Shown: one piece after another, positions 30,767 to 55,485 of the stretch
Position numbering within the stretch: the stretch's first letter is position 1
Layout of the letters: every line of letters begins with the position of its first letter
DNA from: Agrocybe praecox
Taxonomy: Eukaryota; Basidiomycota; Agaricomycetes; Agaricales; Agrocybaceae
NCBI GenBank assembly: GCA_964017145.1
Contig: OZ024852.1
Coordinates: 2,977,945-3,041,944, forward strand
Length of the DNA stretch: 64,000 nt
Direction: 5' to 3'
The notes under the pieces: generated by a model
Told to the model about the DNA's origin: nothing
What the model saw: only the letters and a program-made list of their open reading frames with translations
The model's database searches: none
Translations under genes and position numbers: made by a program

Positions 30767-31474
30767 ATGTCCCAAACACTTAACATTGGTCTTCTCTATC
30801 TCCCTAATTTTCAATGGCTCGACGCCGTTGGCACCTCCGATCTTCTCAACCTTCATTCTCGCAACACCTTGAGCGGTGTTTCGTTCGTCCCCAAGCACAT
30901 CAGCGATAAGGCGCCCTTCATGAAATGGCATTTCATCTCCTCTGATATGAATCCCGTAAATACGACCACCGGGCCTCCTCAGAACCCCACAACCACATAC
31001 AAGGACTGTCCCCCATTGGACTACCTTCTCGTCCCAGGACCTTACCCAATCGTGCCTCTTCCAGAAGGCTGCAATGAGTTCCTTCAGGCACGTTACGCTG
31101 ATCCTCAGTTGAAGGCACTCCTACTCGTTTGCACCGCCTCCCTTGCCGTGTCTCAAGCCGGAATTTTAGACGGCCACAAGGTCTGCACCAACAAGTCCGT
31201 TCTCCGTGACTTCATCGAGACGGGCAGGTTGGAAACGTTCAGCAATAAAGTCCAGTGGATTGGGGACAGGCGTTGGATCGTCGATGGGAAAGTTTGGAGC
31301 AGCGCAGGAATTACGGCAGGCTTGGATCTCGCAGCGGAATTTTCGCGGGTTCATTTCGATGAAGAGGTGGTGAAGCTCGCATTGGAGATGTCTGAGTATA
31401 CGCCTCTCCCAGACAGGCCTGACAATTTCGCGTATATCCTTGACGGAGTCAAGAGTGATCAAGTATCTGTATAA
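30767..31474 (+). CDS. DJ-1/PfpI family protein, isonitrile-hydratase-like, copy A
   Basis: Single exon, 235 aa. Family signposts in order: NFQWLDAVGTSDLL (about 15-27, the Asp aligns with the family's acidic active-site residue), KDCPPLDYLLVPG (80-91), LLVCTASLAVSQAGILDG with the nucleophile-elbow Cys at 122, and RRWIVDGKVWSSAGITAGLD near the C-terminal third. These match the plan of bacterial isonitrile hydratase (DCPPLD, VCTGS, GGGITAGID), a DJ-1-superfamily enzyme that hydrates isonitriles to N-formamides. The substrate here is not known. No signal peptide, so cytosolic. Closest to copy D. It has GTSD where most copies have GPVD. Confidence 0.88.
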   Translation: MSQTLNIGLLYLPNFQWLDAVGTSDLLNLHSRNTLSGVSFVPKHISDKAPFMKWHFISSDMNPVNTTTGPPQNPTTTYKDCPPLDYLLVPGPYPIVPLPEGCNEFLQARYADPQLKALLLVCTASLAVSQAGILDGHKVCTNKSVLRDFIETGRLETFSNKVQWIGDRRWIVDGKVWSSAGITAGLDLAAEFSRVHFDEEVVKLALEMSEYTPLPDRPDNFAYILDGVKSDQVSV

Positions 31475-31817
31475 ATTGTAGGATCAAGATACTTTGGATG
31501 CGGTCAATATGTAGAGCCGAGTCTGCGATGGACAATTATTATATTTTTGTAAAGAGTCGTGATAAATATCGATATCGTATCACATGTTTTGTAAAGAACC
31601 TATATTGATCGTGCCACCATCTCGTTCTTCATTGGGACTACACATATTCCGCCGCCGGTTAACAGTCGTGGAACTACTAGAAATCATATACGCCATTCAT
31701 CTTTATTTCACATTTAGTCGGTTTCTTAAAATCCTAGTGATTACAAGTTCAAGTGCGCAATTAGTCAGTTATTCCACAGTTATTCTTGTTGATTAATGTA
31801 TTTTTAGAACATTGCAT
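31475..31817. other. Short intergenic between convergent copies A and B
   Basis: AT-rich 3' flanks of two convergent genes. Nothing else is seen. Confidence 0.6.
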
Positions 31818-32507
31818 TTATGACAAATCTACGCCCTCGAGCAGATAGGCGAAATGATCTGGTTTGTCTGCAAGGGGTAAATATTCCGACAGTTCCAAAG
31901 CAACCTTCACCACTTCCTCATCGAAATGGACCCGAGCGAACTCGGATGCTACGTCAATCCCTGCCGTGATTCCTGCAGCACTCCAAAATTTCCCGTCGAC
32001 GATCCATCGACGATCTCCAATCCATTCGACTTTTTTGTTCAACAGTCCTGGGTGTTTTGCGAGCTCTCGGAGGATCCACTTGTTGCTGCAAACTTTGTGT
32101 CCGTCCAAAATTCCTGATTGGGATACCGCAAGAGAGGACGTGCACACGAGTAGGAACGCCTTGAGTCGAGGATCTGCGTATCGCTCTCGAAGGAACTCAG
32201 CACAACCCTCTGGAAGGGGGTCGGTCGGGCTAGGTCCTGGAATGACAATATAATCCAACGGCGGACAATCTTTGTATGTTGTCGTAGGATTCTGTGGAGG
32301 TCCAATAGACGCGATGACGGGTTTCATGTCGGACGAGATGTAATACCAATTCATGTACGGCGCTTTCTCGCTGACCTGTGGTGCTACACCCGGGATCTCG
32401 CTCAGATAATTGCGGGAATGATTGTTGAGGATGTCAATGGGACCAATCGCGTCGAGGAATTGGAAGGCGGGAAAGTAAAGTAAGCCCATATTGAGTGTTT
32501 GGGGCAT
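31818..32507 (-). CDS. DJ-1/PfpI family protein, copy B
   Basis: Single exon, 229 aa, start MPQTLNMGLLYFPAF. It keeps all signposts: FLDAIGPIDILNNHS, KDCPPLDYIVIPG, FLLVCTSSLAVSQSGILDG and RRWIVDGKFWSAAGITAGIDVASEFA. It belongs with copies A, C and D, which share PTTTYKDCPPLDY and LPEGC or LPQGC. It is convergent with copy A and tandem with copy C, so this part of the array has undergone inversion as well as duplication. Confidence 0.87.
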   Translation of the reverse strand: MPQTLNMGLLYFPAFQFLDAIGPIDILNNHSRNYLSEIPGVAPQVSEKAPYMNWYYISSDMKPVIASIGPPQNPTTTYKDCPPLDYIVIPGPSPTDPLPEGCAEFLRERYADPRLKAFLLVCTSSLAVSQSGILDGHKVCSNKWILRELAKHPGLLNKKVEWIGDRRWIVDGKFWSAAGITAGIDVASEFARVHFDEEVVKVALELSEYLPLADKPDHFAYLLEGVDLS

Positions 32508-33134
32508 GTTTAGTTGTGTATGGTTCTAACCGCAGGTCGATTCGATAATGGCTGATTGAAAGAGAAATAGGAGAACTACGGTATTTTATATACTCCAGCG
32601 TTGACTTGGATTTCCAAATATCTATGGTTGACGTGCCGTGTTCTCCCGCTACTATAAAAATATCGTATAAAATATCCTGGGAATTTCATCTTAAAAACAT
32701 TGTGATTCTCCTAAATTACCAGATTCTTTTAAGAACTGTGTTTAGACAACAACTTCGTGTTTTCTTTTGTCTCGCAATTCTTAATAACACTATCAGCAAC
32801 TCCCTCTCTCCAGCCTCCTATTATTGTTAAAAGACTTCCGAAACCACCCCGGTCCACCCGTAGGGAGCTCTAGTGGGGCTATACGAGATATTTATCACTG
32901 TAATCTGTACACGCGTTCTGGCGGCACGGTCATTAGGGCCCTAGGGGAGCTCATGACATAAGCGTAAGCGACGCTTATTCGCATACTTATCCGCAAGTTC
33001 AGGCAGTGGCTGTGGAGAGTAACGCCATGATGCACCTGGATGGCGTTGGAACAGTCCGGGATATAGCTGGATGGCGTAAGAAGCGCGTCGAGCAGCCTCG
33101 CACGATGGTGGTAGTGGTCAAAAGGTGGAATGTG

Positions 33135-33217
33135 ATTCGGCTATGGACGCGTCGCGCTATCACGAACCGGATAAGATGTAATCTAATCCGACTAGTGCAG
33201 ATTGTACTGCCACAGCG
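33135..33217 (-). repeat. Dispersed repeat, unit 1
   Basis: Read on the minus strand it runs CGCTGTGGCAGTACAATCTG, then GATTAGATTACATC, CGCGACGCG and CCATAGCCGAAT. The same word order is found in the next unit and, on the plus strand, at 60223-60306. Probably a copy of a short non-coding mobile element. Confidence 0.55.
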
Positions 33218-33258
33218 TAGCAGCCTGGCAAGAAAACAGTTGCGGCCAAAGCAACTTG

Positions 33259-33360
33259 GATTCGGCTATGGATGCAGTCGCTGTCATACAGGTCCGGGAT
33301 CTATGTAATCTAATCTACAGACTTGTAGGTACTACATACGGATTGCACTGCCACAACGCT
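33259..33360 (-). repeat. Dispersed repeat, unit 2
   Basis: The tandem neighbour of unit 1, offset by about 124 bp: GCGTTGTGGCAGTGCAATCC … GTAGATTAGATTACATAG … CCATAGCCGAAT on the minus strand. It is more diverged in the middle, with about 15 extra bases. Confidence 0.5.
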
Positions 33361-33387
33361 TAGATCATTTCCGCCAGAGTCCGTCCC

Positions 33388-33406
33388 ATTAGATTAGATT
33401 AGATTC
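33388..33406. repeat. (ATTAG)n simple repeat
   Basis: Short perfect array ATTAGATTAGATTAGATTC next to the dispersed repeat, whose core also contains ATTAGATTA. Confidence 0.6.
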
Positions 33407-33677
33407 TTCAATTCTATCTTCAACGTATTTTTTTGGATTTTTCGCATGCATGTCGAGTAATGGCAGGATACTACAAACTCATGGACCGAGCTGATAAGAA
33501 GAGGTGTCAGTATACGCGCTCCATGAAATTGACACAGTGGATAATCGACAAGAGTCGATATGTCCCGCCGATTCGATTAAGCGCGCTAGTACATAAGCGA
33601 CCAATAAACGTTATGCAGTCATGATCAAAGGTTGTGTTTATCCACACTTGTTCAATACATTTAGGGTGTAATTTACG

Positions 33678-34358
33678 TTAGGCGCCCTCGACAAGGTATG
33701 CAAAATGATCAGGCTTGTCTGGAAGGGGCGCGTATTCAGACATTTCCAAAGCAATCTTCACAACTTTTTCATCGAAATGAACTCTGGCGAATTCAGCCGC
33801 TAGGTCTATGCCAGACGTTACCCCCGCTGCGCTCCAAATTTTTCCATCGACGATCCACCTCCGGTCGCCAATCCACTCGACCTTGTTTGTTAGAATTCCG
33901 GGAATCTTTGCAAACTCGCGAAGGATCCACTTGCTGGTGCACGCTTTGTGTCCGTTCAGAATGCCGGCTTGCGCTACGGCGATAGAGGAGGTGCATACGA
34001 GGAGGAAGGCTTTGAGCTTCGGATCTGCATAGCGCTCTTTGAGGAACTCAGTGCACCCTTGAGGAAGTGGCTCAAGAGGGTTAGGTCCCGGGACAACGAT
34101 GTAATCCAAGGGTGGACAATCCTTGTATGTCGTCGTGGGGTGTTGTGGAGGCCCACAAGTCGCCTGGACGGGTTCCATATTATTGGAAATATAATGCCAG
34201 GTCATGAGAGGCGCTTTATCGCTGATTTCCTTTGGTACCCCCGGAATCCTGCTGAGAATGTTGCGAGAATGGTTGTTGAGGATATCTACGGGACCAACGG
34301 CGTCAATCCATTGAAAATCGGGAAAGTAGAGAAGTCCCATATTGAGAGTTTGCGACAT
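33678..34358 (-). CDS. DJ-1/PfpI family protein, copy C
   Basis: Single exon, 226 aa. Signposts: FQWIDAVGPVDILNNHS, KDCPPLDYIVVPGPNP, FLLVCTSSIAVAQAGILNG with the Cys in place, and RRWIVDGKIWSAAGVTSGID. It ends directly after AYLVEGA, slightly shorter than its siblings. Nearest relatives are B, A and D. The long upstream interval (34359-35609) carries CGATGGGGACTCC at about 34675, related to the TATGGGGA word before other copies. Confidence 0.87.
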   Translation of the reverse strand: MSQTLNMGLLYFPDFQWIDAVGPVDILNNHSRNILSRIPGVPKEISDKAPLMTWHYISNNMEPVQATCGPPQHPTTTYKDCPPLDYIVVPGPNPLEPLPQGCTEFLKERYADPKLKAFLLVCTSSIAVAQAGILNGHKACTSKWILREFAKIPGILTNKVEWIGDRRWIVDGKIWSAAGVTSGIDLAAEFARVHFDEKVVKIALEMSEYAPLPDKPDHFAYLVEGA

Positions 34359-35609
34359 GGTTTAATCGTCAAGTTGAGAAACTCGATTGTGGTCTTTGAC
34401 GTCGAGGTGTTTGTTAGATGAAAACGATGGATTCTTTGAAGGTCTGAGTTACTATCTACAAAATACATGCTTTTATAGAATTTCTACGTATCTGTTTTAC
34501 AGAGTCTAGCCTATAAGCGTTAAGCGCTGATGTACGGTGTTATACGGTACTGACACATAGGACATTACCAAACCTAGACGCCCTTGGAACTTGCTCGTAG
34601 CCAGTTGCGGAATCATAAATGCCGTTTTTTGCGCTCTAATATCTAACAGCTTTTCGCGTATACGCTAGATGCAGCGATGGGGACTCCCACAGGTCTTGTC
34701 ACTCATCTCCCAATGTCACTGCGGTTGGCATATGCGCAGTTCTCAATTATTTATATGATATTATAAGCTGACGAGCGCACAGCGACTCCCGACATACGTA
34801 TGCGTTGTGAGAACTAGGTGGGTTTATTTCTTTCAAAATTTAAAGCTATAATTTGCCTGTCATTAAGTAGTAGATCACTATTTCGGTTCTCCAAAAGTCC
34901 TCCCATCGGATCCCAAGGAGCAACTTCTAAAGCAAATTATACGACACGGGGGATCCAGAGATAGTTATCAGGGAATAGAGTGTACGCGTCTGCGCGGCAA
35001 ATATATAAGGTCAGATGCTTATCACGGAATGGTGTACACCCGTCTATCCGCCGCTTCCACAGGTGGTACCCAATATGATTAGGGGGTGTAGTAAACTTCT
35101 CCTTAGCGTCATAAGACATTAGTCCAGATAAAATTAAAAATATGAAGTTCTCACACAGAACAGCGTCTGTTTTCTCGTTCTCTTCGGGTCCCAAAAAATC
35201 CAAATACCAAAAAATCTATATCGGGGGTCGCATATATGCAGTCAAACAAAGGAAGAGCGAGATACATTATACATCCTTGCAAGAAATCTATGACAAGATT
35301 ATCACCAGCGACTCAGGTGGTTGCGATGTATGTGATATCTCCATATAGAACTAATTTCTATTTTGAATATTCCTATTCATGGGAGCAAGTCCCCTCACTA
35401 ACGTAATAGTGTTTCTCGAATGGTCAACTATGAAATGATAGCAGATCAAAAAAAAAAAAAGATCAAAAATTCAACAGCATGAAATTTAAGAAACAAACTG
35501 AAAAAGCAAAACGTATACCACACATAATTAACTATTGGTACACTGGTGCAGCATACCAAATTATGAAGATAACAATCCAATAGCGGCCTGCATTTTCTCG
35601 AAATCGCAT
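34359..35609. other. Intergenic, copy C to ARG7
   Basis: No gene is supported. Overlapping small open frames at about 34937-35348 on both strands show no domain or signal. A poly(A) run occurs at about 35449-35460. Confidence 0.5.
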
Positions 35610-37218
35610 TTAACTGCGGTAATCGCCATTGATACTGACGTATTCCTGTCGAAAACGCGTCAGTTATGTCTTGCACGAGGAGAATGAATAATAACGACTC
35701 ACATAGCTGAAATCGCAAGTCCAGTACTTGGCCTCGCCATCACCTCCCATACCCAGCTCAACCAAAACCTCGAAGTCTTCCAACTGAAGAATCTCCTTGG
35801 CACGGACCTCGTCGACCTTTTCGGGCTCGCCGTTCACCAGGACGGGTAAGGGGGAGGTGCCGTCGGAGGGCACGAAAGTGACATTTACTTTTGTAGGGTC
35901 GATGACTGGAGCAACACCGGTGGCTGGGGAAGGTGTGAGTGGGACAGAACCAGTTGCCGCGAGAATTCGGCCCCAGCTATACAAGAAATCATAAATGATG
36001 CAGACAGCAAATAGGAAACAAAAGAGCGACGTACTTAGCATCTTCGCCATAGAGTGCAGTCTTGACGAGCGCAGAAGTGGAAATGCGTGACGCGATACTG
36101 TGCGCGTCTTTGTACGATGGGGCACCCTGAGTGTAGACACAAATGTCCATAAATATTTAATTATCATGCCTAGCAACAAAAACACATACCTTGACAGTGA
36201 CAGTGACAAACTTGGTCGCGCCTTCTCCATCCCGAACCACCAACTGGGCAAGGTTCGCTGCGAAATCTGTTAGCTCCTTCTTGAACACCTCGTAGCCCTC
36301 CTTGTTCGTTTCTTCATCAATAACTAGTCCACCCTTGCTCGCAGCACCATTGGCCAGGACGTAAATTGAATCATTGGTAGACATATCACCGTCGACGCTG
36401 ATAGAATTGAAGCTGCGGTCAACGGCGTATGTCAATGCACTCTGCAAACTGCGAGGAGAAACAGCAGCGTCCGTCATGATGCATCCCAGAAGAGTAGCGT
36501 GAAGTTGTTTGGGTGCGGAAGAGAAGGAAGTGCTAGCCGGACCCATGTCCGGATGAATCATACCAGCGCCTTTATCCATACCCGCCATATGATATTCCTG
36601 TCCAGCGATAGTGAAGGTCCGCGAGCGAAGTTTTGGGAATGTGTCCGTAGTCATGAATGCCTTAGCGGTGCTCTCCCATGCCTCGAAATCCGAGCCTAGC
36701 ACTGAAGTCTCTTTCCCAACGGCCTGGGACTGGATGCCGGAGATGATCTTGGAAATAGGCAAGTTCTGTCCGATAACCCCTGTTGACATAACCAAAGTCT
36801 CATTCTCAAACTTCTTCAAGTTTGAAGGCAGAAGAGCATCTGTGGCCTTCACCATCGCCCATGCGTCATCTAGCCCCTGCTTTCCGGTCACTGCATTCGC
36901 GCAGCCGCTGTTCACGACGACAGCACGTGCATAGCCTCCATTTTTAGTGAGAATTTCGTCTGACACGAGTACGGGTGCTGCCTTGAATGCATTGCGAGTG
37001 AAGCATGCAGCTGCTGATGTTGGCTGTTCCGACGTAGATAGCACCACAGCGAGGTCGGGAACGCCTGCCTTTTTCTTCACTCCGGCATGGATCCCTCCTA
37101 CTACAAAACCTGCTGGGAATGATGAAGAGGGAAGAGGGACATGATGGCGTGCCTTTGACGGAACAGGGCGCATAGTGAAGGTGGCCGTGGATGCCAGCCT
37201 CTTGGGGATGAATGACAT
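35610..37218 (-). CDS. ARG7: Mitochondrial glutamate N-acetyltransferase / ornithine acetyltransferase (ArgJ family)
   Basis: Exons 36190-37218, 36035-36126, 35703-35976, 35610-35645; 476 aa. The Ser/Arg-rich N-terminus (MSFIPKRLASTATFTMRPVP) fits a mitochondrial presequence. The ArgJ domain shows AGVKKK, VVVNSGCANAVTG, MSTGVIGQNLP, DKGAGMIHPDM and HATLLGCIMTDAAV. In this family the precursor cleaves itself before the Thr of the AT-LL motif, making alpha and beta chains. NWGRILAATG and a C-terminal EYVSINGDYRS complete it. The enzyme recycles acetyl groups in arginine synthesis. It is a conserved core gene sitting inside the DJ-1/PfpI array. Confidence 0.93.
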
Positions 37219-38786
37219 GGTTGTAGCAGAGGAAGGTTCAACCTTGCGACCTTGAGCTATTTATCAAAATCTACCGCGAAAATAACGCGATTGGACCACC
37301 TATGCTATGCAAATAGAAAATGAGTCAAATGAATTCCAGATATGAGAATCGTTATACACATACATCACTGTTTGTTCTGCAGCGGACATGACTCGATATA
37401 AGAAAAGATGTCGTAAAGCATCCGAAGCCGAAATAAGCCGAAGTCGGACAGGGGCTTCCTGTTCCAATTCCATACTGGAAACAAGGATTTGGGTAGCATG
37501 CCGAAATTCGCGTTCACCTACATAGACATAGTAGATCCAAGTATGTAAAGGATGCTTTCAATTATCAAAATAAAGAACTTGCCAGAGTAATCTGTATGTG
37601 CGAGCGAATGTTTTGTTGAAAATAGTTAATTGCCGTTGTGCTATCATCCTCCTCCTGCGAGTAGCCAGAGCACCTCGTGCAAGTAGGCCAATGCTAATCA
37701 CGTGTCTCAACGCGTCATGGCACTGCCACAAGCAAGTCCGCGACGCCTTCAAGTTCAAGTTCAAGCTCAGGTTTGAGACGCTCGTCTCTCGAGTCTCAGG
37801 AAATTGGCCCTATATTTATTCTCTCAAAGAGAAATTTTCTCCGAAGGCCCAGGGAAATTATCGGTAGAATCAAAGTGACTCCTTAGATGATATGAAAATA
37901 GATTTAACAATAAGGTCACAACTTACGGATTTCCATTGAGCCATGGAAATCTACGGTACCTCGTTGGTAGAGGTCACTACTTAGTATCTGATTAAACAAT
38001 AATTCCCGCAAAATTTGACCTATGTAAAAGCATCAAAAACGGCTGAAAAACCCAGCTGTAAAACGCCCTATTAGTCAATCAGATACTCGATATTAATGTT
38101 TTTCAACGGATACCAGTTAGGCAGATAGCCATGTCATCTTATGAAATAGAAATAAACTCATTATTGCGAGCTCCGTATCTCCATGGACGCCATCGGCTAT
38201 GCCGGTCATTGAAGGTAAAATTTGGCGACAACAGTTTCTAAATCGGGAAGTTATTTCTGTATGGGGATGCTACAAGCAGGTCTGCTAGTACAACTGGAGT
38301 ATCATGTATATTTTAAATCGAAGTACTCAATAAGGCTGCTCTGTCCTACGGGTGCCATAAATATGACAATGCTGACTGGTATGAGATTTTCTATTATTCA
38401 TTCTCGCCGTTCTAGCGCCTACTAAGGGTTTAAAGAAAATCATCGGCTTACTGCTGAGTGTGAGTGACTAATTGACGGTCCAAATATTACGGAGAAAGCG
38501 TACTCCTGACTAAAATGCCTATCCTATGCGTATGCTAGAGTCTCTGGACGAGTGAATAAGATTGGTCAGTATGCTCACTATTTCGAATACCATTATTGTT
38601 CTATCATAGTGACGACTGCGCAGTTGCATTTTCTAATGCAAGTCAGAAAAAGTGAGACGATAAAACTATATGATAGCATCGAAATAAATTTGTATAAAGG
38701 ACGGCGTTTCCAGAATATAGACATTAAATCCTCAGTAAACTCCAAACAATCAAACAACAGACAATCAGTTGATTAGAAGATAAACC
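37219..38786. other. Intergenic, ARG7 to copy D, including a duplicated promoter
   Basis: About 1.6 kb without a supported gene. The last 550 bp (from about 38220) resemble the region before copy A in order and content: GGAAGTTAT…TATGGGGA, GTGACTAAT, GAGTGAATA, then the TATA region. Confidence 0.55.
38693..38699 (+). promoter_or_regulatory. TATA box of DJ-1/PfpI copy D
   Basis: TATAAAG lies about 90 bp before the ATG. Its flanks match those of the copy A TATA box. Confidence 0.45.
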
Positions 38787-39494
38787 ATGTCCCAAACACT
38801 CAACATTGGTCTTCTTTACTTCCCTTTCTTCCAATGGCTCGACGCAGTTGGCACGGTCGACATTCTCAACAATCACTCTCGTGACGTCCTGAGCTCTATT
38901 TCAGGAGTGCCAAACCATATCAGCAACAAGGCACCCTTCATAAAATGGCATTACATCTCCTCCGATATGAAGCCCGTCAATGTGACAGCCGGGCCTCCTC
39001 AGCACCCCACAACCACGTACAAAGATTGTCCCCCGTTGGACTACCTTATCGTCCCAGGGCCGTACCCGATCGAGCCTCTTCCAGAAGGCTGCAATGAGTT
39101 CCTTCAGGCACGCTACGCCGACCCTCAGTTGAAGGCCATCCTACTCGTCTGCTCTGCCTCGCTTGCAGTATCCCAAGCTGGCATTTTGGACGGCCACAAG
39201 GTCTGCACCAACAAGTTCGTCCTCCGCGACCTCATCGAGACGGGAGAGTTGGATGCCCTCAGCAAGAAAGTTGAATGGATTGGGGACAGACGATGGATCG
39301 TCGATGGGAAAATTTGGAGCGGAGCAGGCGTCACTGCAGGCTTGGATCTCGCAGCGGAATTTGCGCGAGTTCATTTCGATAAAGAGGTGGTGAAGATCGC
39401 ATCGGAGATGGCTGAGTATACGGCTCTTCCAGACAAGCCTGATCAGTTCGCCTATATGCTCGATGGCATAAAATCTGGTCAGACCTCTGCATGA
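38787..39494 (+). CDS. DJ-1/PfpI family protein, copy D
   Basis: Single exon, 235 aa, the closest sibling of copy A, including a short extra tail after the conserved C-terminus (KSGQTSA here, KSDQVSV in A). Signposts: FFQWLDAVGTVDILNNHS, KDCPPLDYLIVPGPYP, ILLVCSASLAVSQAGILDG with the Cys kept, and RRWIVDGKIWSGAGVTAGLD. Shared promoter words with A show that the duplicated block included about half a kilobase of upstream sequence. Confidence 0.88.
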   Translation: MSQTLNIGLLYFPFFQWLDAVGTVDILNNHSRDVLSSISGVPNHISNKAPFIKWHYISSDMKPVNVTAGPPQHPTTTYKDCPPLDYLIVPGPYPIEPLPEGCNEFLQARYADPQLKAILLVCSASLAVSQAGILDGHKVCTNKFVLRDLIETGELDALSKKVEWIGDRRWIVDGKIWSGAGVTAGLDLAAEFARVHFDKEVVKIASEMAEYTALPDKPDQFAYMLDGIKSGQTSA

Positions 39495-40007
39495 ATTATA
39501 ATCCTACGATAGTTTAGATGTGATCGATATGCCGAGCAAAGCGTAGACGCGATGCATGATCTGTTTTGTAAATAATCATGATGATATCGTATCATCCCAC
39601 TCATTCAAATTATAACCCCTTGTTGCATCGTAGTTTCGCATATTTTGAATATAAAGTACTGCGGTTGAACTGCGCGAAGATACTTAAGGTCTTCATCAAT
39701 GATGGTAAATGGCGGTGCATGTTTAGTACGTATAGTACTTAGTCATGACACGGTGCCGGCGCGCAAAGCTTACAACGAGATTTGCAAGCCACTCGTGGAG
39801 AAAGCGACCTATGTATAATGATTAGCGCATTATCATTTCGGGTAAGTAGCTTCCGCATGCGATATGGGGACACACCTCCTTGATACCTCCTGGCGACGCA
39901 GATCATCCCCATTTATTCTGGTAGATAAATAGAATTCTGGAGACGAGATATCCGAAAGAAAGATTGCCCTTCAGAACACCAGAATTATTGTAAACTTTGA
40001 ATCCAAG
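39495..40007. other. Intergenic, copy D to copy E
   Basis: Carries TATGGGGA at 39863-39870, about 140 bp before copy E. Nothing else is recognised. Confidence 0.5.
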
Positions 40008-40703
40008 ATGGCACCGCAAACCTTCGACATGGGACTCATCCTTCTCCCTACCCACCAGTGGGTAGACGCCTCAGGGCCTGTTGATTATCTCAACTCCCAT
40101 TCGCAAAGCTATCTCAGTATGCTCCCTCTTCCACAATCCATTATGGACAGAGTACCCTTCATGCATTGGCATTGCATTTCATCCGACCTCGCGCCTATGC
40201 GCGGCAGGTCTGGACCCGTGCAAATCTCAACCTGCACATACAAAGATTGTCCCCCACTCGACTATATCGTCGTTCCAGGCCCAGATCCCTCCAAACCAGT
40301 CCCAGCTGAATTCGCCCAATTCATAAAGGAACGACTGGACGACCCGAAATTGAAAGGCGTCCTGCTCATAGAGACCGCCGCAATAGCGCTCGACAGCACG
40401 GGCAATGGAGTGCTCGATGGAAAGCAAGTCTGCGGAAACAAGAACACGCTCCGCAGACTTGCGGAAGCTGGGATGCTCAAAGGCAACAAAGTCAACTGGT
40501 TGACTGACAGGAGATGGGCTGTCGATGGAAAGATATGGAGCGCGTCTGGGGTCATGGGCGGTATCGACCTTGCTGCTGAATTGGCGAAGGCCCACTTGGA
40601 TGATGATATTGTAAAACTTGTCAAGGACGTGACAGAGTACGACGAAAATGCAGCATCGCCTGACCCTTTCGCCGCGATTCTTGAGGGAGTGAAATTGAAC
40701 TGA
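40008..40703 (+). CDS. DJ-1/PfpI family protein, copy E, lacking the nucleophile cysteine
   Basis: Single exon, 231 aa, start MAPQTFDMGLILLP. The fold signposts remain: HQWVDASGPVDYLNSHS, KDCPPLDYIVVPGPDP, RRWAVDGKIWSASGVMGGID. But the elbow reads VLLIETAAIALDSTGNGVLDG, with Glu at residue 122 exactly where the other eight copies have Cys (codon GAG). If Cys122 is the catalytic residue as in the family, this copy cannot use the usual mechanism and may be inactive, regulatory or altered. The frame is fully open, so it is not an obvious pseudogene. It groups with F and I (NGVLDGK or DGVLDGK). Confidence 0.87.
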   Translation: MAPQTFDMGLILLPTHQWVDASGPVDYLNSHSQSYLSMLPLPQSIMDRVPFMHWHCISSDLAPMRGRSGPVQISTCTYKDCPPLDYIVVPGPDPSKPVPAEFAQFIKERLDDPKLKGVLLIETAAIALDSTGNGVLDGKQVCGNKNTLRRLAEAGMLKGNKVNWLTDRRWAVDGKIWSASGVMGGIDLAAELAKAHLDDDIVKLVKDVTEYDENAASPDPFAAILEGVKLN

Positions 40704-41558
40704 TAGTTAGTGTAGATAGCTGTTCCACGTAGGAGTAAACATTTATGTATGTCATGCTTCGAAATAGCAACAGTTTCTTCCATAGCCTCTCATATTTCAA
40801 AACCAATCTTGAGAGTCGACTTCTTCATTCCCTCTTCGTAATTGTTTTTTGCTGTTATGACATTTGACGTAGATAGAAGCAAATTCGGCCAGAGTTGCCA
40901 AGAATGGTATTCGGGACAAGACGCTCAGCATGATGATATTTTGCGTATACTGTCCAAAAAAAAAAAACAAGCGACCAATACCCGTGCTGCTACAATGAGC
41001 AGTCACATAATCGGGAACGAGCCTGCCAGGGGGGGTAGGAAATTAACGTCAAAATATGAAACGCAGGTTGCCATGCGAGGTCGGTTGGGAGCGAACCGTT
41101 ATAGTGTGATCTGCTAAGACATTTTGTTGTCCCACTGGGAAAGGAACAGTACAAAAGGGGAAGATCGACCGAAGTAATTGAAAATGTCGTCAAAAAGATG
41201 GACAAACATTAGTAACAACTCTCCAGTCGGACTGCGCATGCAGGTGCAGAAGATAAAATGAGCTGTAAGCCTAAGCCGAATGTGACCAATCATTTGAGAG
41301 GCCGAGAGGATGCCCATTCGATTCAGCAGCATTATCTAGACGTGCGTATGGGCTTCGTAATAGTGACATGTAAGTACTTGAAGACGTTTCAAGTTTTAAG
41401 AAGTCGCTTAAGAGGCAACTACGGTAGTAGTACCAACCACATGATGATCTGGACGACAATAATTGTATATAAGCATGATGCATAAGGAGGAGATGCTATA
41501 CATTACCCATACACTAGCCTCGAAGAGCGAAAAAGCATCCTATCAGCATTAAATCTCC
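40704..41558. other. Intergenic, copy E to copy F
   Basis: No supported gene. A poly(A) run lies at about 40956-40967, followed by scattered short open frames without features. Confidence 0.5.
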
Positions 41559-42254
41559 ATGACACCTCAAATTCTTGACATTGGACTCCTCCTAATTCCA
41601 GACCACCAGTGGCTTGACGCTGCTGGACCTGTGGATTATATCAATTGTCACTCGCACGCGATCTTGAGCGAGAGTTCTTCCCCCAAAAACATACTCGACA
41701 AAGCACCCATCATCAATTGGCATTACATCTCCCACACCATGGCGCCAGTCCGAGTAACGTCCGGACCTATGCAATTGCCAACATGCACATATGACGACTG
41801 TCCTCAACTGGACTACATCATAATCCCCGGCCCGGATCCCTCGAAATCACCTCCAGGAGCCTTCAGCCAATTCGTCAAAGACCGACTGGATGATCCAAAA
41901 ATGAAAGGCCTTCTTTTAATCTGCACAGCCTCGCTCCTGGTGGCCAACAGCGGCAATGGCGTTCTTGACGGAAAATACATCTGCAGCAACAAATATACCT
42001 TGCGCATGTTGTCGGGGGCGGGTCTGCTCAAAGGCACTAAGATCAATTGGGTAGGGAACAAGAGGTGGACAGTGGATGGAAAGATATGGAGTTCGGCTGG
42101 CATCACGGCTGGCATCGATTTGGCAGCAGCGTTTACTAGGATTATCTTGGACGAGGAAATCGTAGAAATCGTGAAGAACGCGACAGAGTACGAGGGGAAA
42201 CCGGAAGCACCTGACGCATTTGCAAGGATTCTGGAAGGTGTCAAGCTGAACTGA
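41559..42254 (+). CDS. DJ-1/PfpI family protein, copy F
   Basis: Single exon, 231 aa. Signposts: HQWLDAAGPVDYINCHS, DDCPQLDYIIIPGPDP (one Pro to Gln change in the DCPPLD motif), LLLICTASLLVANSGNGVLDG with the Cys in place, and KRWTVDGKIWSSAGITAGID. It groups with E and I by the insertion NSGNG/NAGDG before VLDG and by the KGTK-type loop. The proposed catalytic residues are intact. Confidence 0.87.
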   Translation: MTPQILDIGLLLIPDHQWLDAAGPVDYINCHSHAILSESSSPKNILDKAPIINWHYISHTMAPVRVTSGPMQLPTCTYDDCPQLDYIIIPGPDPSKSPPGAFSQFVKDRLDDPKMKGLLLICTASLLVANSGNGVLDGKYICSNKYTLRMLSGAGLLKGTKINWVGNKRWTVDGKIWSSAGITAGIDLAAAFTRIILDEEIVEIVKNATEYEGKPEAPDAFARILEGVKLN

Positions 42255-42511
42255 GCGGGTTAGATGTTAAAGCGATTATTATGTGTTATTTCGGAAACAT
42301 CGCGAGTGATGGCATGCATGACAGGGGAATTGACAAGAAACTAAACACAATAAAAACAAATGTTCGTACGTCATATTAATGCGAGGAAGAAGGAACATAC
42401 CTAGGGTAGACGTGACGGGTTTCAGTGGAGTCCTATTACAATCCTCAGAGATGAAGAAGAAAGTTTGTTGGGGAAGATGTGGGGGAAATAGACATGATAC
42501 AAGAATACGAT

Positions 42512-42580
42512 AACCCCGGTGATCAGCGGTTAGTCACAAAATAGTGGACCACAAATAATAGTGGTTCGAAGCCGGGCATT
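42512..42580 (+). other. tRNA-like fragment, possibly a tRNA pseudogene or SINE head
   Basis: About 68 nt begin CCCCGGT and end GCCGGGCA, so six of seven acceptor pairs can form. Inside are GCGGTTAGTCAC, like a D-arm/A box, and GGTTCGAAGCC, close to a B box. The D stem does not pair and no convincing anticodon arm forms, so a working tRNA is unlikely. Confidence 0.3.
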
Positions 42581-42661
42581 TTTGGAAATTTTTATGGCCT
42601 GGGGGAGGGGAGAAGACCTTATTAGTGGATATTATAAAGCACATCTCTAGATAGCAAGTTC

Positions 42662-42674
42662 TACCCACAGAATA
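42662..42674 (+). promoter_or_regulatory. Shared promoter word TACCCACAGAATA (copy G)
   Basis: The same 13-mer occurs upstream of copy H at 43840-43852. In both cases it lies a short way downstream of a TATAAA-type word. Either a conserved control site or a remnant of promoter duplication. Confidence 0.35.
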
Positions 42675-42833
42675 AACATAACTCGCATGCCTTTTGCTTC
42701 GTTTTATGATGCTATCTGACATAAAAACCCAGGGGTGTCGGACGCCTGATTCGTGATAAAGGTCATCGTTTGAGCGTTGAAACCAGTAACGGACACGAAC
42801 ATACCACAACCGCACTACAAACCACGAATAATC

Positions 42834-43517
42834 ATGCCAGAGTCACTCGACATCGGTCTCATACTATTTCCCAATTTTCAGTGGCTCGATGCTGCCGGAC
42901 CTGTCGACCTCCTCAACAATCATTCGCATGGCTTCCTTAGCGATGCCGGAATACCAAAAGAGATACTTAGAAGGGCACCAATCATCAATTGGCACTACAT
43001 CTCCTCCGATCTAAACGAGGTCGAAGCATCATCAGGTCCCCCACTTCGTCCTACGACCACCATCGAGACCTGCCCTCCACTTGACTACATCATCGTCCCG
43101 GGGCCTAAGCTGGACCTGAAGCTTAGCGAAGCATGGATCAACTTTTTCCGGAGACGCTATGCAGACCCAAATTTGAGGGGTATACTCCTCGTCTGCACAG
43201 CGTCGCTTGCCGTGTCTCAAACAGGTATCCTAGATGGGCTAAATGTGTGTAGTAACAAGACGGCCCTGCGAAAGTTTGCAGAAACGGGGATGGTTTACAA
43301 GAATGTGAAATGGGTCAAAGACAGGAGGTGGATTGTTGACGGGAAGGTTTGGAGCAGTGGGGGGATCACAGCAGGACTTGATTTAGCAGCAGCATTTGCG
43401 CGAGTGCACATCCACAAAGACGTTATCGAGGTGGCGTTGGAAATTTCGGAGTACACCCCTCTGCCTGACAAGCCAGACGTATTCGCATATATCCTTGATG
43501 GAATCGACCTGTCTTAG
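42834..43517 (+). CDS. DJ-1/PfpI family protein, copy G
   Basis: Single exon, 227 aa from the conserved start MPESLDIGLILFPNF. The frame is open further upstream but has no ATG there. Signposts: FQWLDAAGPVDLLNNHS, ETCPPLDYIIVPGPKL (Glu-Thr replaces Lys-Asp before CPPLD), LLVCTASLAVSQTGILDG with the Cys, and RRWIVDGKVWSSGGITAGLD. It forms a subgroup with copy H, sharing NHSHGF/NHSYGF and TTxETCP. Confidence 0.87.
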   Translation: MPESLDIGLILFPNFQWLDAAGPVDLLNNHSHGFLSDAGIPKEILRRAPIINWHYISSDLNEVEASSGPPLRPTTTIETCPPLDYIIVPGPKLDLKLSEAWINFFRRRYADPNLRGILLVCTASLAVSQTGILDGLNVCSNKTALRKFAETGMVYKNVKWVKDRRWIVDGKVWSSGGITAGLDLAAAFARVHIHKDVIEVALEISEYTPLPDKPDVFAYILDGIDLS

Positions 43518-44140
43518 TTGCCTATAGCGTAGTGTAAATAATCTGGTAGAAATCTTTTTAATCATTCCGACATCTCGGTAGGATGCATGCCTATTACATA
43601 CCAAAGGTTGCGACTTCGTATAGTCTAGCTGCGGACCCAATTTAATATCCGATTTGTTTGGAGTTCTACAGTCGGTGTTCATTGGTGTATTTGTGAAAAT
43701 CCTCAATTGTTATACGAAATAGGAAGCATTACTTACTGGAATAAGAATCACATACTGATATTTTGCCAATGTCTCGTCAGTGGACAAGGGCAACGTGCGG
43801 ATTACAAATGACTGTCGGTTATCGCTTGATATAAAATTTTACCCACAGAATATCTTTATCACCTTCTTCAGTCTTCTATCACTCTATGGGAGGCTGCGCG
43901 CCCAGGCCGCGTTACCCAGCGGATCGCATATGAAGTGAAGCATTATATGCATTATATGCCCGCCCCTTGTCTGGTGCTGTAAGCGATTTTGAATTGATCC
44001 AACTCGCTATGGGGACGCCTGTCAACCTTTGATAATTGTAATCTGTTTCCGCAAACATAAAAGTCAGAAATTATTGAGACAGATTAAGTATCGCAAAACG
44101 CACCTTCACCAATCTTTGCCAACCCCAAGAACTTTTGGAC
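43518..44140. other. Intergenic, copy G to copy H
   Basis: Holds TATAAAAT at 43830, TACCCACAGAATA at 43840 and CTATGGGGAC at 44007. No gene. Confidence 0.5.
43840..43852 (+). promoter_or_regulatory. Shared promoter word TACCCACAGAATA (copy H)
   Basis: Identical to the word before copy G. Here it is about 290 bp from the ATG, against about 160 bp in G. Confidence 0.35.
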
Positions 44141-44824
44141 ATGCCAGAAACACTCAATATGGGTTTGCTCCTGCTTCCCGAATTCCAATGGCTGGATGCG
44201 GCTGGCCCTGTTGACTTGCTCACAAACCACTCGTATGGCTTCATAAGTCGTGCGGGTGTTCCTCAAGATATAGTCAACAAGGCACCTATTATGAATTGGT
44301 ACTACATCTCCTCCGACCTGGAGCCAATTCAAGCATATTCTGGCCCACCCATGCTTCCTACCACGACATTCGAAACTTGTCCATCGCTCAACTACATCGT
44401 CATCCCAGGAACCGACCCGACGATGCAGCTCTCTGACGAGTGCCTGAAGTTCTTGCAGACCCGATATGTAGACCCGGAGTTGAAAGCCTTCCTTATGGTT
44501 TGCTCTGGCTCCATTGCAGTAGCACAGGCCGGAATCCTCGACGGACTTAACGTATGCAGCAACAAGTTCGTCCTTCGAACCCTCGCTTCCGCCGGTTTCC
44601 TGAACAAGAAGGTGAAATGGGTAGGAAACCGAAGGTGGATTGTTGACGGGAAGATTTGGAGTGCAGCGGGAGTAACAGCTGGAATAGATTTGGCAGCCGA
44701 GTTCGTTCGAGTCCATTTCGACAAGGACCTTGTCAAATTGGTATTAGAGTTGTCGGAGTACAGCCCTCTTCCAGACCAGCCAGATTCGTTCGCATATCTT
44801 CTTGACGGTGTAGATTTATCCTAG
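44141..44824 (+). CDS. DJ-1/PfpI family protein, copy H
   Basis: Single exon, 227 aa, start MPETLNMGLLLLPEF. Signposts: FQWLDAAGPVDLLTNHS, ETCPSLNYIVIPGTDP (the DCPPLD motif is the most altered of the nine), FLMVCSGSIAVAQAGILDG with the Cys, and RRWIVDGKIWSAAGVTAGID. Sister of copy G. It is the last copy of the main block; the region beyond returns to housekeeping genes. Confidence 0.87.
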   Translation: MPETLNMGLLLLPEFQWLDAAGPVDLLTNHSYGFISRAGVPQDIVNKAPIMNWYYISSDLEPIQAYSGPPMLPTTTFETCPSLNYIVIPGTDPTMQLSDECLKFLQTRYVDPELKAFLMVCSGSIAVAQAGILDGLNVCSNKFVLRTLASAGFLNKKVKWVGNRRWIVDGKIWSAAGVTAGIDLAAEFVRVHFDKDLVKLVLELSEYSPLPDQPDSFAYLLDGVDLS

Positions 44825-45383: not shown

Positions 45384-45529
45384 GGTGAATGGTTTGGAGA
45401 ACCGCGCCGCCAACTTACGCGCCCGACTGTCGACGGGGAGTTCGTTGTTTGGTTTCCACGCGTGGCAATAACAACGGCGAACCCCGTTCGTCCAAATCTC
45501 CTATCTTTCTTTTTCATGACTCGTCGGTC

Positions 45530-50640: not shown

Positions 50641-51035
50641 CAGGTATGTGCCGGGTGTTAATTGCATACATCTACTGATCTCCTCTCTCTCAAGACCTCC
50701 TGGGACATTGATAAGATTGCTTAATCTAGGTAAGTAATCGATGATCAATAGAGATACCCGGGTCCTAATGAATTGTGAAAAGGACAATGTATCTATTACA
50801 ATGATATGATGTGGTTTCGAAAACACCCAAGTGATCAAGGATTATCTAGTCGGATTTTCCTGCCTAGATTACTCATAAGGCTGGGAAAATTACGTACAAC
50901 ATAGAACTTGAACTTCCCATGATCAAGTATCGATAACAATACCTTCTCCCGAACCCGAACCCGAACATCGACGTGTCGACACTAGGATCAGGTTTTGCTC
51001 AAAATCTTCCATTCTTCGAATTTCATATCTTTCTC
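50641..51035. other. Intergenic
   Basis: Includes a short (CCCGAA)3-like repeat at about 50949-50966. The reading frame of the next gene is open through its end but lacks ATG there. Confidence 0.45.
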
Positions 51036-51644
51036 ATGAAACTGATCGACAAAAGATACGAAACAATAATATGCAACAAAATTCCAGGGATTCCATTGGA
51101 TGAGGAAGCTGAGATGAAAGCGTATTTGAACGAAACACTGAACGAACTTATCAACTGTCGACGTGAATTGTATGGACTACGCATGAAAAACAAACGGCTA
51201 CGCTCAAAGAACAAGAAAGGATTGGACAATTGGTATTTGCGAACGAAAAAGCTATCAAAGAAGAAAAGTCCTCAAGTTGCAGAATATTTGGCTAAAGTCA
51301 AGGGTATGTGGCGTTGTTAACAATGTTATTCGCCATTGACATTTCTCTCATTGGCCGCAGTATAGTACACACATTTCTGGCACTTTATCTGGAATTTGAA
51401 TTCGTACGGTCTGACCGCTTCATAGGCTAATCGTGCAAGAATCGCGAGATCATTATATGAACGGCTCAACGCGCGCATGGATGCATTCTTCGACGCAGAG
51501 ATAGCTGAGCTTGAGGAATCGTTCTCCAATATGCAAAGAGCATTCCTTGACATTGTCGCGAAACGCACCAATAGAGAGCAGGAGGGTAACCCCGAAGAAA
51601 GTACTGTCAGAAACGACGCCGAAGTCGAACATGCTCAGGAATAG
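51036..51644 (+). CDS. Small coiled-coil protein, unknown
   Basis: Two coding blocks, 51036-51296 and 51426-51644, give about 159 aa. The first is basic and helical (ELINCRRELYGLRMKNKRLRSKNKKG). The second is acidic and helical (FFDAEIAELEESFSNMQRAF). Joining them in frame requires a weak donor (GTCAAG at 51297), because the better GTATGT at 51304 leaves the wrong phase, so the splice is uncertain. No family is recognised. ATG at 51036 is the first in frame. Confidence 0.42.
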
Positions 51645-52037
51645 AAAGGATCCGATAACAAAACCAATAATGTATTTCATGGTTCAAACTTTCACCTAGT
51701 TCGCTGTCTCTTTTTCTATACTTGCTTCTCACAACTATGCAACGAAATGACATATGTTCCGAAGGAGTTCCAAACAACAGCAAATGACTACCTGTATTAA
51801 AGTAAGACGGGCTTCAATGTTCTTTGGGGTGCACACCCTCCCGCTTTTCATTACACAGGTAAAATTTTGAGTAACACGTGTGCCCAATTCGCAGCCTGAG
51901 GTAGCGGTGCGCTGAAAGTAAAAGAAATTCCCAGACCAGTTGCGGCAGCCATGGCTGATAGTAATACTGTAACAATACTGTAACACAGGGTCAGGAACAT
52001 AAAATTTAAAAAGAACTTTGAAAAGAACAAAACATAA
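51645..52037. other. Intergenic before tRNA-Met
   Basis: The 3' flank of the coiled-coil gene and of the minus-strand tRNA. No further feature. Confidence 0.5.
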
Positions 52038-52141
52038 TGCCCCCTGCAAGGCTCGAACTTGCGACCTCAGGATTGAATGAGCACTGCTCACGCATAGAAA
52101 TTCTATGAGACCTGCGCTCTAGCCAACTGAGCCAAGGAGGC
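52038..52141 (-). tRNA. tRNA-Met (CAT), elongator type, with an intron of about 30 nt
   Basis: On the minus strand a 7-bp acceptor stem forms between GCCTCCT and AGGGGGC (with G:T), a D arm GCTC…GAGC, an anticodon loop CTCATAA with anticodon CAT, and a T arm GCAAG-TTCGAGC-CTTGC. An intron of about 30 nt interrupts after position 37, the usual place in nuclear tRNA genes. The mature length is 74 nt. The T31/T39 mismatch below the loop is the same as in yeast elongator tRNA-Met. The final A is the discriminator; CCA is not encoded. Confidence 0.9.
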
Positions 52142-52761
52142 TGCCAATAGTCTGAGGGAATAAATTTGAGCGGAGCCAAGGGCGGAGTTCGTAAATCAAC
52201 AAACGAATTAGACGCCACATATTCATTTTGCATATCAATTGCATATTCAACTTGCACAAATCCTTTGAAAAATTGGGGCACAGGCAACGCTTAGCCTCAA
52301 CATCTCATGCTTGAATTCATACCAATGAAAAAGTAAGTTTGCATAATTTTAGCCAGATTAGTTATTCACCAGTCGAAGGAGGGTAGGCACATATGCGAAC
52401 ATCACATCATTTTTGATCCTTCACACCTTCGACAAGACTGCCAGTGAAAGCTCTTTGAGATCTAAGTTGCAATTTATAATACCTATGGATTCCTGGACTT
52501 TGGTGCCCACACGCCTCAGCAGCCAGAAATTATGTATCAACTGTTGAAGATCGAACACCGTTACCTCATGTTTAGTTCAGCCTCTTTTGGAAACCAGTCA
52601 TCGAGATTCGACTATAAAAGCGCTGAATCTTTTCGTTCTTTTGACTGCCCACTTTCTTGAACGTAACGCATCATTGCGTCAGGTAAGCTCCTGTTTGGTA
52701 CTGGGTCGCATTATGTATGAGTTAATCCACACTTATAGGATCAACCAATATCGATTCAAAA
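52142..52761. other. Intergenic between tRNA-Met and the membrane protein gene
   Basis: Promoter regions for both flanking genes. A short open frame at 52587-52805 was not accepted. Confidence 0.5.
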
Positions 52762-54741
52762 ATGCCCGCGCTATTACCTCCTCAGAGTTCAAACTTGTCC
52801 ACTAGCCCTACCACGTATCCAACATCACCATCTAACCGTGATTCAATTTCGAACTCGGTTTACTTTTCTTTACCCACTACGGAGCTTCATTCGTCCGTGC
52901 ATGGAGTCGCCGAAGCGCCAGTTTCTTTACAAGGATCCACTCCTCGCCGCATGCATACCGTACCTCAAACTGGACAGCTTAGTAATGGAATGGCTCCAGA
53001 AACTCCGCTGCCTCGAAGAACAGTAAATTCTTTGTCTTCTATGCCTCTGAATCTCAACGAGAAGCCTAAGCCCCTACAACGTGTATCGCTCCCTGGAAGT
53101 GTTGCCGTTGTTGCCAGCCCGGTCGCACCGAAATCTGGCGGTGGGCTATCCCGAAAAAGCACAGAAAATCGACCTAGGACAAACGAGCCATTTGTTCCCA
53201 TTGATCCTTATCGCCGCCCCATTAGGCCTCGAATCGATACTACTGGAAATAAACCTCAAAACTCTGGCGGGGCTCATAGGCCAGGAGAATTCATCTCAAA
53301 TAACCCAAGCCCCGTTCCCAACCTTGCCCCACTGTCTGAGACTCAAGATGAAGAGATCGCGACAACTCCACTTCTTACACACAACATACCCTCACACAAC
53401 CCACCCTCCTCACCTGGCCAAAGATCTGATTTGTTCCAACCTTTGGTTGTCATCGATACTCGGGATATCCTCGATTTGAATCGGTCAGAATCAGAATTCT
53501 CGGATTCAAATCGAGATAATTCTGTGTTCCAGTATTATGTTGGTCAAATTTACTTGAATGTACTTCTCCGCCTCCCTTCGCTATACTTTTCTCGAGTCGA
53601 ACACATTTTTCAGGAGACAAGACTTTCCTTGATCGAAATGGATAAAATGGCCTATAAAACGACCTCGCAAGCCAACGGCAGCCCTACACAACCACACCCA
53701 TCCAAGGAACGCATTTCGTGTCCTCGGTGTAAACAACTCGAATCAGCCTGGGAGTTTCTGATCGACTCTGCCATTCGAGAATGTAAAACTTTTAACATCG
53801 TCTCGGCCATACTTCTCTCGTATGTTTTTTCATCATTCCTCGGAGATCTTTTACTGAAAGAAGCTTCCCCACTAGGGCTATTCTCACTATCTTACAGATT
53901 CAGAGGGCTGCTGTCGAGCCAGTAACGCGCTACACTGCACTTCTGTCTCTTATATGTGCTCTTGTAAGCCTTCTTTATGGGTGCATGTATGTTGTCCGGT
54001 TTGGAAGCATGCGTAAAACATATACGGCTGTTGAGTGGGCTTCGGTATGTGGTACTTACTGATGTGGTCGTCTTCTGTATTATTCATGCCACCTAACTGT
54101 TCTGCGGTGATCTCTTTGATTGCAGGAAGCTGAAAAAACGGAAACCAACACATTGTGGAATGTATATGTGCTGTTTGCAATGCCCGCAATTTGGCTCTCC
54201 TGGTCAGTTTCTTGCATCAGAAATCATAAGGCTACGTTGTGATTGACCATTTTTTCCCAAAGGTCGATCATGTCGTACATTGTATGCATTTTGTCCTTCG
54301 TCTGGTTGACAAGTCCTGCGTCTAATGATACTGGACCAATGATGCCACTTCCCGATTCCCTCATCATCTTGATTCGAATTTGGATCACCACAGTCTTGGG
54401 GACGGGCGTCGTGTTCGGGATCATGATTCTGAACACCTTTCATATTTATGGAAGGGCCATGGATAGAGCTTTAAATAAAAAGAAAAACAAGGACTATGCT
54501 GTGAGTCGGGTATCAATAACCTCCTCGCTAGATGGACCGTCTCCCAAATCGCAGGGGGTTCTTCATCGCGTTTTTCTTTCTCTTTCTAATTTAATATCTT
54601 TGAGCTGGCATACGCACCGGTCGAGCCCTTTTGTTACCATGTGTTTGTTTTTAGTAAATTGACTGCAATTTTATTATTCAGTTCAAATTGAATCCTTTGA
54701 TGTTTGCTTCGAACGAATACGGCTTTGTCGCCCTCTTCTGA
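52762..54741 (+). CDS. Multi-pass membrane protein with long disordered N-terminus, unknown
   Basis: Exons 52762-53819, 53876-54044, 54126-54202, 54263-54500, 54682-54741; 533 aa. Residues 1-230 are Ser/Pro/Asn-rich and low in structure. A conserved-looking block (YYVGQIYLNVLLRLPSLYF, CPRCKQLESAWEFLI) follows. Then come about four membrane segments: TALLSLICALVSLLYGCMYVV, given here as ALLSLICALVSLLYG; NVYVLFAMPAIWLSW; YIVCILSFVWLTS; and IWITTVLGTGVVFGIMIL. A basic patch ends the last loop. No transporter or receptor motif is recognised. The last intron is 181 nt and may hide a further exon. It ends 48 bp from the convergent DJ-1/PfpI copy I. Confidence 0.62.
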
Positions 54742-54789
54742 TTCTAAACATCAAACAGTCGACTACAATACACGCATATCAACAACAGC

Positions 54790-55485
54790 TTAATTCAATT
54801 CAACGCCTTCCAAGATCCTCGCGAATGAATCTGGGCGTGCATCTCGCTCTTCGTACTCCATAAAATCTTTTACGAGATCCACCACCACCTTGTCAAAGTG
54901 AGCCTTCGCGAATGCAGCTGCGAGGTCAAGTCCAGCAGTGATTCCAGCGGAACTCCATATCTTGCCATCTACGACCCATCTCCTGTCACCGACCCATTTT
55001 ATGTTGGTACCCTTCAACAACCCCGCTTCGGCAAGCGTGCGAAGGGCCATTTTGTTGGAGCAAACTTGCTTCCCATCGAGGACCCCATCGCCCGCGTTGG
55101 CGATTGCGAGAGCTGCAGTGCAAATCAGCAGGACGCCTTTCATCTGTGGGTCCTCCAATCTTTCCTTCAAGAATTTGGAGAATGCAGCTGGGGGTACTTT
55201 GGATGGATCCGGCCCTGGAACGACGATGTAGTCGAGTGTGGGGCAATTTTCGTAGGTACATGTAGGCGTTTGTACTGGTCCAGACGTTGCACGGACTGGC
55301 GCCGAGTCCGAAGAAATATAATGCCAGTTCATGACGGGTGCTTTGTCGATTATGGACTTTGGAAGGGGGAGGAGACTCATCATCTGATGAGAATAGTTGT
55401 TAATGTAGTCAACAGGCCCAGCAGCGTCGAGCCATTGGTGATCAGGAAGAAGAACAAGTCCCATGTTAAGAGTTTGGAGGGTCAT
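54790..55485 (-). CDS. DJ-1/PfpI family protein, copy I (outlying)
   Basis: Single exon, 231 aa, start MTLQTLNMGLVLLPDH. Signposts: HQWLDAAGPVDYINNYS, ENCPTLDYIVVPGPDP, VLLICTAALAIANAGDGVLDG with the Cys, and RRWVVDGKIWSSAGITAGLD. It belongs with E and F, although about 10 kb of core genes separates it from the main block. Either the block was split by rearrangement, or this copy was transposed away from it. Tail-to-tail with the membrane protein gene. Confidence 0.87.
   Translation of the reverse strand: MTLQTLNMGLVLLPDHQWLDAAGPVDYINNYSHQMMSLLPLPKSIIDKAPVMNWHYISSDSAPVRATSGPVQTPTCTYENCPTLDYIVVPGPDPSKVPPAAFSKFLKERLEDPQMKGVLLICTAALAIANAGDGVLDGKQVCSNKMALRTLAEAGLLKGTNIKWVGDRRWVVDGKIWSSAGITAGLDLAAAFAKAHFDKVVVDLVKDFMEYEERDARPDSFARILEGVELN

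Follow-up and report, generated by a model that had tools for sequence, protein, structure and literature searches.

A clustered, intronless DJ-1/PfpI gene family of agarics in Agrocybe praecox includes a member without the nucleophilic cysteine

Why does a mushroom genome hold nine uninterrupted genes of a single protein fold within 25 kb, and what might their products do? We addressed this question for a stretch of 64,000 nucleotides from Agrocybe praecox (assembly GCA_964017145.1, contig OZ024852.1, positions 2,977,945 to 3,041,944), hereafter called the window, in which an earlier note had described nine intronless DJ-1/PfpI genes in both orientations. This description was confirmed. The nine open reading frames (ORFs), designated c1 to c9 in their order along the window, encode intact proteins of 226-235 amino acids; eight lie at 30767-44824 and the ninth at 54790-55485, with six on the + strand and three on the − strand. 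Each ORF is continuous from its ATG to its stop codon and can be aligned over its whole length with the other copies, and an alignment of all nine contained neither internal stops nor intron-like insertions. The array is probably an old, clustered and intronless agaric family that belongs to the isocyanide-hydratase-like part of the DJ-1/PfpI superfamily. It contains one interesting and mildly surprising non-cysteine member. The genes, their clustering, the relatives in other fungi, the fold as predicted and the positions of the Asp and Cys are directly documented, whereas the cytosolic location, the substrate, the chemistry and the role of the non-cysteine member are inferred.

The relationships among the copies define two subfamilies. 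Pairwise identity among the nine proteins is about 47-80%. Subfamily A comprises c1, c2, c3, c4, c7 and c8 (55-80% identity within the group), and subfamily B comprises c5, c6 and c9, which are 58-67% identical and have a two-residue insertion in common; identity between the subfamilies is 47-56%. Eight copies exceed the cut-off of the Pfam family DJ-1_PfpI (PF01965). The exception is c5, which scores 19.7 bits where 26.6 are needed and which is 46-65% identical to the other eight. Sequence signposts of bacterial isonitrile hydratase, which the earlier note had attributed to all copies, occur in only part of them: the VCTxS motif reads VCSAS in c4, VCSGS in c8, ICTAS in c6, ICTAA in c9 and IETAA in c5, and the DCPPLD and AGID signposts also vary among the nine.

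Searches of the window with all nine proteins as tblastn queries revealed no further copies or pseudogenes at E < 0.1. In the complete assembly (59.2 Mb, 347 contigs), a protein search with c2, whose counts are lower bounds, returned ten matches, namely the nine array copies and one distant paralogue on contig C8. Chance can be excluded as the cause of the clustering. The C8 paralogue (L019, at C8:1819421) is 31% identical to c2 and matches the same PDB proteins as the array copies, and no Pfam family was assigned to it at E 0.001. It too is encoded by a single ORF, of 282 amino acids, so that being intronless does not set the array copies apart. A PF01965 profile search of the genome listed seven of the nine copies (c5 and c6 were not listed) and two distant DJ-1-type matches on contigs C5 and C9, the former a partial match (L020) and the latter a short, interrupted one (L021).

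To what extent is such an array shared with other fungi? A protein search with a profile of the nine copies gave 956 matches, of which the best 120 were listed, and the following statements refer to these 120. An organism name is attached to 58 of them, the remainder being unnamed and mostly from metagenome-type sources. The named genera, all of which we take to be agarics (Agaricales), include Agrocybe, Psilocybe, Galerina, Gymnopilus, Hebeloma, Pholiota, Cyathus, Coprinopsis, Agaricus and Laccaria; Coprinopsis cinerea, for example, has one relative or more (P0100). Several species have at least two entries, and some entries lie on contigs of equal size: a size of 6494 bases recurs with four proteins and one of 6376 bases with three, each of which we take to be one contig because of the equal size. 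The counterparts of c5, c6, c7 and c8 (P0008, P0006, P0004 and P0003, with 85, 87, 92 and 93% identity, respectively) are all listed on a contig of 6494 bases and thus appear to reside on one contig with the same four-gene set. For 61 of the matches there is no entry in NCBI, nr or UniRef, and 58 members of this group are at least 215 amino acids long. As some of their sources may be transcript assemblies and intron-bearing genes would drop out, only the recurring 6494- and 6376-base contigs provide fair evidence for intronless relatives. Several related mushrooms are likewise multi-copy, in some cases apparently on one contig. The array had been put forward as an unusual feature, but it looks largely ordinary among genomic features of this kind.

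The age of the array was assessed with a quick tree of 114 hand-picked rows, which include 66 of 122 family proteins, 27 of 120 proteins of the C8-paralogue family plus the C8 paralogue itself, and 11 bacterial proteins. In this tree the nine copies interleave with proteins from other sources: all copies except c3 and c4 have a tree sister from another source, and a single clade of the nine was rejected by the approximately unbiased (AU) test (p-AU 2.9e-6). Proteins of Agrocybe pediades group with c1-c4 (support 99), with c8 (97) and with c6 (94). The synonymous divergence (dS) could be computed for 12 of the 36 copy pairs, the other 24 being saturated; it exceeds 1.5 in 9 of the 12, and the ratio of nonsynonymous to synonymous divergence (dN/dS) ranges from 0.07 to 0.21. 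Only c1 and c4 form a fairly recent pair, being the sole pair with a dS below 1 (dS 0.55, dN/dS 0.21). On the basis of the rejected clade, the foreign tree sisters and these divergence values, the most fitting interpretation of the array is that of an old birth-and-death family maintained by purifying selection. Duplications, inversions and losses would have shaped it, for the most part in advance of the separation of today's species. A shared promoter motif was not detected: when the 300 bases upstream of each of the nine genes were compared with 60 draws of random stretches of the window, no 7- to 10-mer was enriched. Searches of an open-access library, which covers few subscription papers, listed no paper that would seem from its title or the opening of its abstract to deal with this agaric family.

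These data also bear on where the founder came from. One suggestion is that this lineage obtained a bacterial isonitrile hydratase gene by horizontal transfer, or gained its founder by retroposition of a cDNA, and that tandem amplification followed as a response to a specific isonitrile. The intronless and clustered state of the genes, and a fold and catalytic pair like those of bacterial isonitrile hydratase, are in line with this proposal, but the nine copies are not one clade and the family is spread over many agarics, the distant C8 paralogue is likewise one ORF, and no close bacterial donor was seen. The last point rests on two family patterns with which genomes of prokaryote species were searched: of 54 matching stretches just one, from Vibrio, encodes a relative, with 30% identity. 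We therefore consider an acquired founder in this lineage very unlikely. The part of the suggestion that holds is that a local, intronless, multi-copy family was built by duplication, and the part that does not is that its founder entered or was retroposed in this genome and was amplified there; the tree and the result of the AU test speak against any recent transfer or retroposition with local amplification, which was therefore rejected. A much earlier transfer, into an ancestor of the agarics, or a bacterial origin of the whole family, is possible, because the agaric family (support 99), the C8-paralogue family (92) and the 11 bacterial rows (95) form three separate groups between which the root was not placed.

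Which chemistry the proteins perform was approached through structure. AlphaFold2 models of c5 and c8 (mean predicted local distance difference test scores of 95.0 and 96.8, respectively) match structures of the DJ-1 fold. The best solved relatives are the isocyanide hydratase of Pseudomonas and the Clostridium protein 3mgk, and isocyanide hydratase provides the best Foldseek matches of the c8 model; human, fly and fission yeast DJ-1 structures follow close behind in the match lists. The structure alignments contained 44 sequences. In the Pseudomonas enzyme InhA, the mechanism has been described as involving Cys101, Asp17 and a thioimidate (PMC10971408). The counterpart of the general acid Asp17 is present in all nine window copies and all 75 family rows, and that of the nucleophile Cys101 in eight of nine copies and 73 of 75 rows, c5 and its orthologue P0008 having Glu instead. 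The array resembles InhA in its predicted fold, in the Asp and, c5 excepted, in the Cys. At position 20 after the Cys, which we take to correspond to the His126 site of DJ-1, 72 of the 75 family rows have Asn, two have Ala and one has Ser; His is found there in 9 of 11 bacterial rows.

Further features of isocyanide hydratases were compared. The Ralstonia enzyme has a hydrogen-bonded pair, D180/Y204, near the dimer interface (PMC10792529). Among the 74 ungapped family rows, D183 is present in all 74 and Y207 in 61, and all nine window copies have both residues, their equation with the Ralstonia pair being based only on the motif and the spacing of 24. A linker between helices I and J, the IJ linker, has been described as distinctive for isocyanide hydratase (PMC10971408). 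Of the nine window copies 4 show the start of this linker, EYxPxP, as do 41 of 75 family rows and 75 of 129 proteins; beyond it the chain continues for no more than about 20 residues, and the c8 model has a single 4-residue helix there. The array differs from the bacterial hydratase in two further respects: after the nucleophile its members carry Asn-Lys, the usual residues in the bacterial rows being His-Trp, and about 35 C-terminal residues of the bacterial enzyme are unmatched. The single Glu-for-Cys member sets the array further apart from the Pseudomonas enzyme.

With these similarities and differences in mind, we tentatively assign isocyanide-type chemistry to the Cys-bearing copies, at a likelihood just short of an even chance. 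Isonitrile metabolism is plausible: the catalytic Asp and Cys are conserved, and a hydratase is among the nearest solved structures. Other hydratase features are absent. A whole-genome search with the model of the isocyanide synthase family, PF05141, gave no match, but 0 of 14 controls gave a signal either, and an intron-split gene could escape this search. The model itself works, as it recovered matches from 5 genomes among 295 of the Vibrio order, 4 of them over the cut-off. Isocyanides, if they are the substrate, would more likely come from other organisms. According to a preprint, isocyanide hydratases are found in 21.1% of fungal isocyanide synthase clusters, where they are thought to be self-protective, and clusters of this kind also exist in some basidiomycetes (PMC10153163). 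For XanA of Aspergillus fumigatus, close homology to an established hydratase is reported (PMC5974471). XanA and other proteins of fungal clusters are, like the array proteins, described as ThiJ/PfpI-domain proteins homologous to isocyanide hydratase (PMC5974471; preprint PMC10153163), a likeness that for XanA is by description only; the XanA-type genes share a cluster with an isocyanide synthase, whereas none was found in the genome that carries the array. A further comparison is offered by the family of the C8 paralogue (L019 and P0123-P0242, from agarics and ascomycetes), which has the Asp, the Cys and the Asn-Lys in common with the array but groups separately in the tree and shows the EYxPxP linker start in 0 of 28 rows.

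Two other functions have to be weighed against isocyanide-type chemistry. The copies could be glyoxalase III or protein-repair enzymes of the DJ-1 type, or redox chaperones, as they have the same fold and as eukaryotic DJ-1 structures rank close to the top of the structure lists. However, the best matches are hydratases and 3mgk rather than DJ-1, and almost every family row has Asn at the presumed His126 site, which makes this function somewhat unlikely. The copies could also be non-catalytic and bind a ligand, as the DJ-1-type domain of the GlxA/GbdR regulators does. GbdR and FtrA are the only NCBIfam matches, and c5 lacks the nucleophilic Cys; yet these matches reach 19-46 bits where 425-480 are required, almost every family row retains the Asp and the Cys, and Pfam shows no DNA-binding domain in the nine copies. 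A purely ligand-binding function for the array is thus decidedly unlikely.

The eight Cys-bearing copies are most likely small cytosolic cysteine enzymes that act on reactive carbon electrophiles, with isocyanides as the best guess at their substrate. By analogy with the Pseudomonas enzyme, the invariant Asp would serve as proton donor, the thiolate of the Cys would attack the carbon of the substrate, and the resulting thio-intermediate would be hydrolysed by water. Differences between the pockets may provide a panel of substrate ranges.

The ninth protein, c5 (40008..40703, + strand, single ORF, 231 amino acids), is DJ-1/PfpI-related but has IETAA for the Cys motif, where most of the family has VCTxS or a near variant, and GVMGG for GITAG; its orthologue P0008 shows the same changes. 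Among 129 proteins, Glu at the nucleophile position is confined to c5 and P0008, and in a search with c5 as the only query P0008 was the sole Glu form among 10 matches, the other nine keeping the Cys. At the columns with at least 95% conservation (40 in the whole set), c5 and P0008 jointly depart at four, L18V, C121E, T179M and F188L, whereas the six other orthologue pairs do so at none or one each; C121E lies in the nucleophile motif and T179M in the GITAG loop. This contrast is weaker at the columns with 90% conservation, where the shared changes number 9 for c5, 6 for c7, 3 for c8, 2 each for c6 and c9, and 0 each for c1 and c2. That c5 is a decaying gene was ruled out by its intact ORF and by the same Cys-to-Glu change in P0008; this ORF and the 85% identity of the orthologue indicate that c5 has been kept. 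It is probably a conserved paralogue without hydratase function. The nucleophile would have been lost to Glu in an ancestor, and a binding or partner role would be most likely for the retained protein. A more specific proposal, which we regard as unlikely, is that c5 is a conserved pseudo-hydratase in which the ancestral Cys-to-Glu change and linked active-site changes produced a regulatory or binding partner of its catalytic neighbours, possibly in mixed dimers, or else an enzyme that uses the Glu in place of the Cys. A precedent may be AtDJ1C of Arabidopsis, described as an essential member of the DJ-1 superfamily without the conserved Cys (PMC3160306). Like c5 it is kept in spite of this loss; unlike c5 it is a plant protein with two DJ-1 domains in the plastid, and it is likened to c5 by description only. 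A literature search for work on a Cys106-to-Glu change in DJ-1 found nothing.

The remaining copies, each a single DJ-1/PfpI ORF, are as follows. On the + strand, c1 (30767..31474, 235 amino acids, VCTAS as the nucleophile motif) is 83% identical to P0001 and 81% to c4 (38787..39494, 235 amino acids). On the − strand, c2 (31818..32507, 229 amino acids, VCTSS) matches the InhA isonitrile hydratase in the PDB with an E-value of 7.2e-19, and c3 (33678..34358, 226 amino acids) likewise has VCTSS. The next three are on the + strand: c6 (41559..42254, 231 amino acids), c7 (42834..43517, 227 amino acids, VCTAS) and c8 (44141..44824, 227 amino acids), of which the closest listed proteins are the counterparts P0006, P0004 and P0003 given above. 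The isolated c9 (54790..55485, − strand, 231 amino acids) falls into one group with the fragment P0121 and c5/c6. Antisense ORFs of 157-246 amino acids lie opposite c3, c5, c8 and c9 (33948-34421, 40262-40783, 44084-44716 and 54898-55638, respectively) and are probably a by-product of codon composition.

Between c3 and c4 the array encloses a gene of the ArgJ family (35664-37260, − strand, two ORFs), which looks split because its Pfam matches fall in two ORFs of different frame. Elsewhere in the window, three tandem and apparently intron-bearing copies of another family lie at 7622-9339, 10375-12180 and 13080-14807, their DNA being 63-72% identical in separate stretches; of three exon-like pieces that were tested, one has a match to glycosyl hydrolase family 76 (PF03663). 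A dispersed repeat of about 140 bases occurs at 33080-33218 and 60222-60358. From 255 first-look candidates, 40 scored genome matches were obtained including itself, the others being about 78-92% identical, and the repeat is perhaps a short mobile element. ORF matches to GATA zinc fingers and one match to DAP3 (mitochondrial ribosome) are located at 2434-4492 and 56060-56779.

In this array a eukaryote provides a natural set of related DJ-1/PfpI proteins, one of which already lacks the nucleophile. As such, it could reveal whether agarics detoxify isocyanides produced by their competitors, and how an enzyme of the DJ-1 fold becomes a protein that does without the cysteine.
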